A stretch of DNA of 34,903 nt from Hyphomicrobiales bacterium (GTDB taxonomy: Bacteria > Pseudomonadota > Alphaproteobacteria > Rhizobiales > JAJFHC01). Each line of letters opens with the position of its first letter. Positions within the stretch are counted from its first letter, which is position 1. The position numbers were made by a program, and so were the translations under genes. A model generated the notes under the pieces. The model saw only the letters and a program-made list of their open reading frames with translations, did no database searches and was not told the origin of the DNA. The DNA lies in NCBI GenBank assembly GCA_021775835.1, contig JAJFHC010000082.1, forward strand, positions 1 to 34,903. Direction: 5' to 3'. Below are positions 1 to 528 of this stretch, piece after piece.

Positions 1-528
1 GCCGCCGCCGGCTGCACAGGGGTTGCAAGGATTGCAAGGATTACATGCATTTGCCGCACACGGATTACATGGGTTACAGGCTTTTGCCGCAGCACATGGA
101 TTGCACGGGTTACAGGCTTTTGCCGCAGCACATGGATTGCACGGGTTGCAGGCCTTTGCCGCCGCACATGGATTGCATGGGTTACAGGCCTTTGCCGCCG
201 CACATGGATTGCATGGGTTACAGGCTTTTGCCGCAGCACAAGGATTGCACGGGTTGCAGGCTTTCGCCGCCGCACATGGATTGCACGGGTTGCAGGCTTT
301 TGCAGCCGCACATGGATTGCACGGGTTGCAGGCTTTTGCTGCAGCACAGGGGTTGCACGGGTTACAGGCTTTCGCCGCCGCACACGGGTTGCATGCTGTA
401 CATGCTGCAGCCGCCGGATCGGAACTCACAGCCAGCCCGCCTGCCAGTATGCTGCCACCGACTGCTACTCCCATTGCAATCGGTACCATCGCTGCTGTTG
501 ATAAAAGACGATTTCTGAAATCGCGCAT
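1..528 (-). CDS. Exported Cys-rich protein of CNPCNPC repeats (partial, C-terminus off the left edge)
   Basis: Function unknown. The reading frame starts at the ATG at 528 and stays open to base 1 (at least 176 residues). A GAGGAA ribosome-binding site lies about 8 bases upstream. Residues 1-40 form a signal peptide: a basic start (MRDFRNR), a hydrophobic Ala/Gly/Val stretch and an Ala-rich cleavage region (DPAAAA). The rest is about ten near-identical 12-residue units, A-C-N-P-C-N-P-C-A-A-A-K, giving three Cys per unit and about 30 Cys in the visible part. The last visible residues (A-A-G-G-G) leave the repeat. Codons vary at third positions while the peptide is kept, which supports this strand and frame. 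The plus-strand open frames over the same bases have no export signal or sensible composition. Metal or heme-related binding, redox buffering or a structural surface role are all possible. None is shown. Confidence 0.8.
   Translation of the reverse strand, partial: MRDFRNRLLSTAAMVPIAMGVAVGGSILAGGLAVSSDPAAAACTACNPCAAAKACNPCNPCAAAKACNPCNPCAAAKACNPCNPCAAAKACNPCNPCAAAKACNPCNPCAAAKACNPCNPCAAAKACNPCNPCAAAKACNPCNPCAAAKACNPCNPCAANACNPCNPCNPCAAGGG
20..402 (-). repeat. 36-bp in-frame tandem repeat array within the CNPC gene
   Basis: About ten tandem copies of a 36-bp unit lie head to tail with no spacers, each encoding one 12-residue CNPCNPC unit. Copies differ mainly at synonymous positions (for example ttgcacgggttg against ttgcatgggtta), and the two end copies are more diverged. 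Such arrays tend to change copy number by slippage or recombination. Confidence 0.9.

Follow-up and report, generated by a model that had tools for sequence, protein, structure and literature searches.

This analysis concerned a cysteine-rich gene at the left end of a 34,903-nucleotide stretch of contig JAJFHC010000082.1 from a Hyphomicrobiales bacterium (assembly GCA_021775835.1), the whole of which is called the window below. It indicated that the minus-strand open reading frame (ORF) at positions 1-528 is very probably a truncated cytochrome P460 fusion, of which the window shows the repeat-bearing front part. Such Cys repeats, together with the genes of an FGE-like protein and of DUF6969, most likely constitute an undescribed periplasmic module. 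Our best guess, in a chemistry that we infer, is that the repeats serve the FGE-like protein as polythiol substrate or partner.

The frame starts with the minus-strand ATG at 528, extends over 176 codons and is still open at base 1, with the following features.

1..528, minus strand: 5' part of the gene of the exported Cys-repeat protein (176 codons in the window, running off the left end; orthologue at 9995-11458 of locus L001)
403..528, minus strand: signal-peptide-like N-terminus, residues 1-42 (MRDFRNRLLSTAAMVPIAMGVAVGGSILAGGLAVSSDPAAAA), the end of the signal being judged by eye
10..402, minus strand: first Cys-repeat block, residues 43-173, with CTACNPCAAAKA, eight exact CNPCNPCAAAKA, the variant CNPCNPCAANA and CNPCNPCNPCAA
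537..544, minus strand: Shine-Dalgarno-like AAAGAGGA, containing AGAGG, upstream of the ATG at 528

The hydrophobic N-terminus, which ends in ...DPAAAA, looks like a signal peptide by eye, as signal peptides were assessed throughout, and the protein is probably exported, as an earlier note on this DNA had proposed. Behind it, CTACNPCAAAKA is followed by the eight exact CNPCNPCAAAKA units, the variant unit and CNPCNPCNPCAAGGG, for a content of 34 Cys and 22 NPC per 176 residues; the earlier count of about ten units was fair, with eight exact copies, a ninth variant and shorter edge units. Pairwise comparison of the exact units gave 96 codon differences, of which 96 were synonymous and all at third positions; of random point changes in these units, 22% would be synonymous. 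The same differences would amount to 12 to 96 replacements in the five other frames, versus 0 in the minus-strand frame. The peptide is therefore under selection and the coding strand is the minus strand, in agreement with the earlier note, which had also rightly seen that plus-strand frames are open. Neither of the refuting conditions that this note had set was encountered: between copies in the window all changes are silent, and the Cys-coding frame is conserved in the homologues seen. That note knew of no assigned function, and indeed a Pfam scan of the ORF gave no match and an NCBIfam scan a single one (E 0.17, 10.6 bits), far under the cut-off of 770.

The best-matching locus, L001, comes from the metagenome-assembled genome (MAG) OFTM70 (genome G001); it matches query residues 1-157, with 94% identity in the best segment, and its neighbours match those of the window, e.g., a 560-residue thiamine pyrophosphate (TPP) enzyme and an MltB-like transglycosylase. 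Its gene (9995-11458) encodes 487 residues from the ATG, arranged as a signal-like start, a first block that ends in CNPCNPCNPCAAGGG, a stretch SASKKCFVPRIRQAAA, the second block and lastly a domain that closes with CHDCH and a short tail. Since L001 carries CNPCNPCNPCAAGGG in mid-protein, with a second block and P460 after it, the window holds the first repeat block only. The C-terminal domain of the L001 protein is a cytochrome P460 (PF16694, 36.9 bits versus a cut-off of 27), as is found in the L003 repeat protein (39.1 bits versus 27); the full-length L001 protein gave no Pfam match, perhaps owing to its composition. By orthology with L001, the window gene would itself end in P460, and its product probably belongs to the cytochrome P460 family. 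The description of a stand-alone protein built almost wholly of repeats has thus to be revised: the gene is cut by the window edge, its 487-residue orthologue ends in P460, and the repeats are probably the N-terminal arm of a heme protein.

The likeness to cytochrome P460 / cytochrome c'-beta lies in PF16694, which exceeded the cut-off in both repeat proteins scanned, in the CxxCH motif (C142, C145, H146), invariant in 19 of 19 aligned P460 domains including that of L001, and perhaps in a Lys (K83 of A3) invariant among the same 19; the difference lies in the Cys-repeat arm that precedes the domain. K83 aligns with M59 of chain 7s5o, a weak match (E 0.004). With a numbering offset of 20, M59 would be Met79 of NeCP-beta in the 2025 P460 review (PMC11928373), which weakly suggests that K83 sits at the likely heme cross-link position of P460. 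The distal carboxylate position, present in NH2OH-oxidising members, aligns with an invariant Gly in the same weak 7s5o alignment; according to the review, P460-family forms without NH2OH oxidation have Ala or Gly there (PMC11928373). The terms "cysteine-rich", "Cys-rich" and "fused" are absent from the main text of this review (PMC11928373).

Repeats of this kind are widespread among relatives. A genome-contig scan gave 513 pattern stretches and 217 relatives, of which the best 80, representing 79 distinct loci, were kept; most relatives are MAGs, judged by title, and absences reported below are therefore soft. A protein search with the ORF gave 1042 matches at E <= 0.001 among 7997 scored; among the 120 matches listed, the repeats stand alone or are joined to P460, SoxA/TsdA cytochrome c, PF04264 or PF01476 domains, the last two being YceI and LysM. 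By motif, the 79 loci contain 58 repeat ORFs of P460 type, 46 of them with a C-x-[VI]-P-R island, and the Cys-repeat arm before the P460 domain often exceeds 100 residues. When the P460 part of L001 served as query, 63 of 66 relatives had four or more repeat motifs. In 31/79 loci the large ORF is accompanied by a second one with four or more NPC, mostly short and repeat-only. The repeat itself is variable in copy number and, by lineage, in its letters (CNPC, CGAC, NPCAAK, SPC), a Cys after [P/A] being common to most variants. The heme domain varies too: P460 in most loci, SoxA/TsdA-type above cut-off in L020, L043, L045 and L061, and CCP_MauG just above cut-off in L056 and in L160.

Some further architectures were met. 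In P0005 and P0019, NPCNPCAAK-type repeats flank a small unknown domain, and the source name of P0005, Nitrospinota, implies that the repeats reach beyond Proteobacteria. P0161, a TIR-domain protein, has this P460 domain at its C-terminus, preceded by a CKIPR island, and lacks repeats. A second P460-like protein without many NPC adjoins the repeat-P460 gene at L057 (9159-9818) and at six other loci, directly upstream in 6/7 (one member scanned).

The evidence for a module comes from gene neighbourhood. Neighbour genes were our own codon-based calls, clustered; most clusters were judged by eye and few members were scanned. A family of about 250 residues, whose scanned member is DUF6969 (PF22308), was found in 48/79 repeat loci, with 47 of the 48 genes within 3 kb; a family of about 295 residues, whose scanned member has the FGE/SUMF1 domain (PF03781), was found in 41/79, with 40 of the 41 genes within 3 kb. 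The L066 member of the latter was rejected as a different FGE paralogue. Consensus lines were length-filtered (FGE from 41 to 40, DUF6969 from 48 to 44, P460 from 59 to 58, and the SCPLNxTP family described below from 13 to 12), and a cluster tally mixing repeat-chosen and DUF6969-chosen loci was left out of the rates. Gene order varies, being DUF6969-FGE-small-P460 in L003 and L009 and heme protein-small-FGE-DUF6969 in L056. The repeat gene, the FGE-like gene and DUF6969 stay grouped despite changed repeat letters, heme domain and gene order, which argues that the link is to the repeats.

Whole-genome searches took in the genomes of 50 of the 79 loci. DUF6969 was present in 47 of these genomes and an FGE-like orthologue scoring at least 440 bits in 45; no other FGE paralogue listed at E 1e-30 reached 130 bits. 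All three elements occur, for instance, in Aestuariispira insulae CECT 8488 (L050, genome G002). Starting from DUF6969, 32 of 66 loci had, inside 4 kb, an ORF in which 80 residues hold four or more [x][P/A]C motifs (L136 and L144 being borderline); FGE-like genes were near in 17, P460 in 18 and cytochrome c in 16. The 226 kb of DNA further from DUF6969 gave two matches, both repeat proteins of the Cys-repeat kind. Starting from the FGE-like gene, 15 of 19 loci had a Cys-repeat ORF within 1.4 kb, and in G089 and G023 such an ORF lies elsewhere in the genome, the FGE-like gene of G023 standing at a contig end.

Co-occurrence was in line with this. In a draw of 289 alphaproteobacterial genomes, the class of G002 (itself reached through its repeat locus), the strict motif NPCNPCAA occurred in 18, with 0 for the reversed-pattern control in every row; DUF6969 occurred in 62, including 17 of the 18 strict-motif genomes, and FGE-like orthologues in 19, of which 17 had DUF6969 and 9 the strict motif. 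Two fragment matches (G078:C468 and G023:C44) were not fetched. One-sided Fisher tests gave p = 9e-12 for the pairing of motif and DUF6969, 1e-7 for that of motif and FGE-like orthologue, and 8e-11 for that of FGE-like orthologue and DUF6969; the values are indicative only, since related genomes are not independent. A gammaproteobacterial draw had the FGE-like gene in 2 of 274 genomes, G005, which seeded the draw, and G398, the only independent one, where an NPC-repeat CxxCH protein adjoins the FGE-like gene.

Several observations weigh against the overall explanation favoured below. The P460 domain of the window gene is not visible, the window ending before it. In G001, the closest relative of the window, the FGE-like gene is unlinked and a whole-genome search did not find DUF6969. 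The FGE-like orthologue was not found in three Sneathiella genomes and the gammaproteobacterium G335, despite repeats and DUF6969, nor were either of the two genes in the MAG G307; in the class draw, only 9 of 18 strict-motif genomes had the FGE-like gene. Conversely, 22 of the 66 DUF6969 loci, 6 of them at contig edges, lacked a nearby repeat, FGE-like gene, P460 or cytochrome c, and the FGE-like orthologues of G047 and G217 had neither a repeat gene nearby nor the strict motif anywhere in the genome. Regarding chemistry, the C-x2-C pair of the FGE-like protein, versus C-x4-C in human FGE (residues 336 and 341 in structure titles), means that FGE chemistry is not assured, and the substrate motif CXPXR is not present in the repeats, which read C-x-P-C or C-x-A-C and have no Arg. 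The C-x-[VI]-P-R island keeps the Cys/Arg spacing of CXPXR, with Pro one place later.

The FGE-like protein has the FGE fold, a signal-like N-terminus by eye and a signature of its own, SW[DN][DE]xGCGxCR. FGE binds Cu(I) through two active-site Cys; the FGE-like protein has two invariant Cys, C265 and C268 of L003, in the C-x2-C spacing. It has 2473 relatives at E <= 1e-80; among the 120 matches listed, the C-x2-C pair and the signature are retained, and source names are FGE, SUMF1/EgtB/PvdO family, ToxD or hypothetical. P0201 and P0217 are tandem double FGE-domain proteins with the GCGxCR signature in the first domain and not in the second. The window has its own FGE-sulfatase protein (17938-19833, plus strand), in which 631 residues fuse a caspase-like Peptidase_C14 to that domain; it matched the FGE-like profile weakly and was rejected as the repeat-linked orthologue.

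DUF6969 is His-rich and has no evident signal peptide. Its invariant residues (14 aligned, L003 numbering) include H57, H75, H77, E81, H82, H84 and H86, which suggests a metal site; neither the fold of its model (predicted local distance difference test, pLDDT, 89.7) nor its sequence brought a convincing PDB match.

Other neighbours were less frequent. A family of about 170 residues with the motif SCPLNxTP and a signal-like start lies near repeat genes in 13/79 loci (L070, 2807-3316; also L008, L047 and L056) and has no Pfam relative and no significant PDB relative. A Sulphur-transport family (PF04143) was seen in 14/79 (L078, 13072-14259), with 11 of the 14 genes within 3 kb. Also present were a small cytochrome c (10/79), a DSBA-fold protein (PF01323; 7/79, 4 of the 7 within 3 kb), an Rrf2-type regulator (6/79) and a SelR-domain family (5/79), SelR being a methionine sulfoxide reductase domain; one member of each of these five families was scanned. 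The last four are too few to carry an argument, and the thiol or redox chemistry of such minor neighbours would fit several of the explanations weighed below. Upstream of the window gene, a perfect palindrome CACTTAAGTG (662-671, minus strand), in a stretch common to the upstream DNA of L001, is a possible regulator site.

From a mechanistic point of view, the combined explanation that we prefer, tentatively and at somewhat less than even confidence, is that of a P460 fusion arm within an FGE-like/DUF6969 module that acts on the repeat Cys. The ORF would encode, as a long Cys-x-[Pro/Ala] repeat, the N-terminal arm of an exported cytochrome P460-family protein with c-type heme. The FGE-like protein would belong to the FGE superfamily as a copper-thiolate oxidase, binding the repeat Cys and converting them to formylglycine or another oxidised Cys; DUF6969 may help to make, load or recognise the modified repeats, and the treated arm may attach or co-assemble heme enzymes and repeat-only partners in the periplasm. 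Among the readings, that in which the FGE-like protein itself acts on the repeat Cys ranks first, though we hold it to be less likely than not. Its most ambitious form we consider unlikely: a new class of processed polythiols, in which an exported copper oxidase of the FGE family, its Cys pair shifted, and DUF6969 would convert many C-x-[P/A] Cys to formylglycine aldehydes or another oxidised form, so that heme enzymes and small partner proteins gain a reactive or metal-binding arm for periplasmic assembly. The earlier note had listed a substrate for modification among its options; that option gained support from the conserved neighbouring FGE-like gene, modification itself staying a putative step.

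Somewhat unlikely, yet the strongest competitor, is an unmodified periplasmic thiolate sponge, metallothionein-like, for Cu(I)/Zn storage, detoxification or delivery, in which the FGE-like protein would move copper or reduce or oxidise thiols without forming formylglycine. The 34 Cys in 176 residues, arranged as repeated C-x2-C, would suit it, as would the C-x2-C pair kept in the FGE-like protein among its 120 listed relatives, the SCPLNxTP neighbour, exported and cupredoxin-like by eye, and the EGKCG-repeat captophorins, suspected copper sequesters (PMC13097082). However, no metal regulator or pump was recognised among the listed neighbour clusters, most of them judged by eye only; the copper link of the SCPLNxTP protein, which has no Pfam or significant structure relative, is by eye only, and a plain metal sponge would need no FGE-fold partner.

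A disulfide scaffold seems quite unlikely; here, proteins made of repeats alone would be cross-linked with heme enzymes bearing a repeat arm to form a network in the periplasm, and the FGE-like protein and DUF6969 would help to assemble it. The mostly repeat-only second ORFs, the joining of like repeats to P460, SoxA/TsdA-type cytochrome c, YceI and LysM domains, and the DSBA-fold neighbour speak for such a scaffold. The DSBA-fold protein, however, starts with FDFGSPNAY and by eye shows neither a CxxC there nor a signal peptide, so that it need not make disulfides, and the FGE fold is not known to catalyse disulfide formation. Maturation of the heme domain by the FGE-like protein and DUF6969 (e.g., a P460 Lys-heme cross-link), the repeats being a passive linker, is improbable: the 58 P460-type ORFs and the invariant K83, weakly aligned with the cross-link position (PMC11928373), agree with it, but both genes also lie beside repeat proteins with SoxA/TsdA-type or CCP_MauG-type domains (L020, L043, L056) and beside some without a P460 gene scored nearby (L094, L097). 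A neutral linker without a role, grown by slippage, would fit the varying copy number and drifting letters, but was already disfavoured and is hardly credible in view of the wholly synonymous codon differences between exact units and of a linkage to two gene families that outlasts changes in letters, heme domain and gene order.

Several known systems invite comparison. Bacterial metallothioneins and Csp copper-storage proteins use many Cys as metal ligands, and the Cys-repeat protein is likewise rich in Cys; by contrast, the ORF has no Pfam match and no near-cut-off NCBIfam match, and its long low-complexity repeats sit on exported heme proteins. The FGE superfamily (SUMF1/EgtB/PvdO/ToxD, PF03781) differs in its Cys pair, 336/341 against C-x2-C here, and in the CXPXR that the repeats lack. 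MNIO enzymes and anaerobic maturases are routes to peptidyl-Cys modification. The captophorins/bufferins (MNIO DUF692 with PME1, EGKCG-type precursors) share a Cys-rich repeat peptide with an adjoining oxidase gene (PMC13097082), whereas the partners here are the FGE-like protein and DUF6969, and the repeats are often fused to heme domains. MNIO (PF05114) was present in 6 of 49 repeat-bearing genomes (G307 left out) and not found in the other 43; in the three of these six genomes where it was placed it lies away from the repeats, on a 62.6-kb contig in G001 (L001 being on one of 143.6 kb), on a different contig from the repeat-linked DUF6969 in G007, and more than 1.4 Mb from L042 in G330. The captophorin/bufferin arrangement is thus the nearest described logic, of which the repeat module is a variant and not a member.

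In the literature (full text for open-licence papers), no paper was found on the repeat motif, DUF6969 or their association, and the repeats, beside two little-studied genes, one of which is related to a Cys-oxidising enzyme, point to a Cys-based bacterial protein system that has yet to be described. One testable module thereby joins the evenly spaced Cys of exported heme proteins, DUF6969 and a large FGE-like subgroup. If the FGE-like protein does not act on the repeats, the module would represent a novel periplasmic scaffold, of metal or thiol type, linked to P460-type heme chemistry. If it does, the substrates of FGE-type copper oxidases would extend beyond sulfatases, and, should conversion of the polythiol prove true, bacteria would have a further enzyme route to peptidyl-Cys modification, here on repeats.
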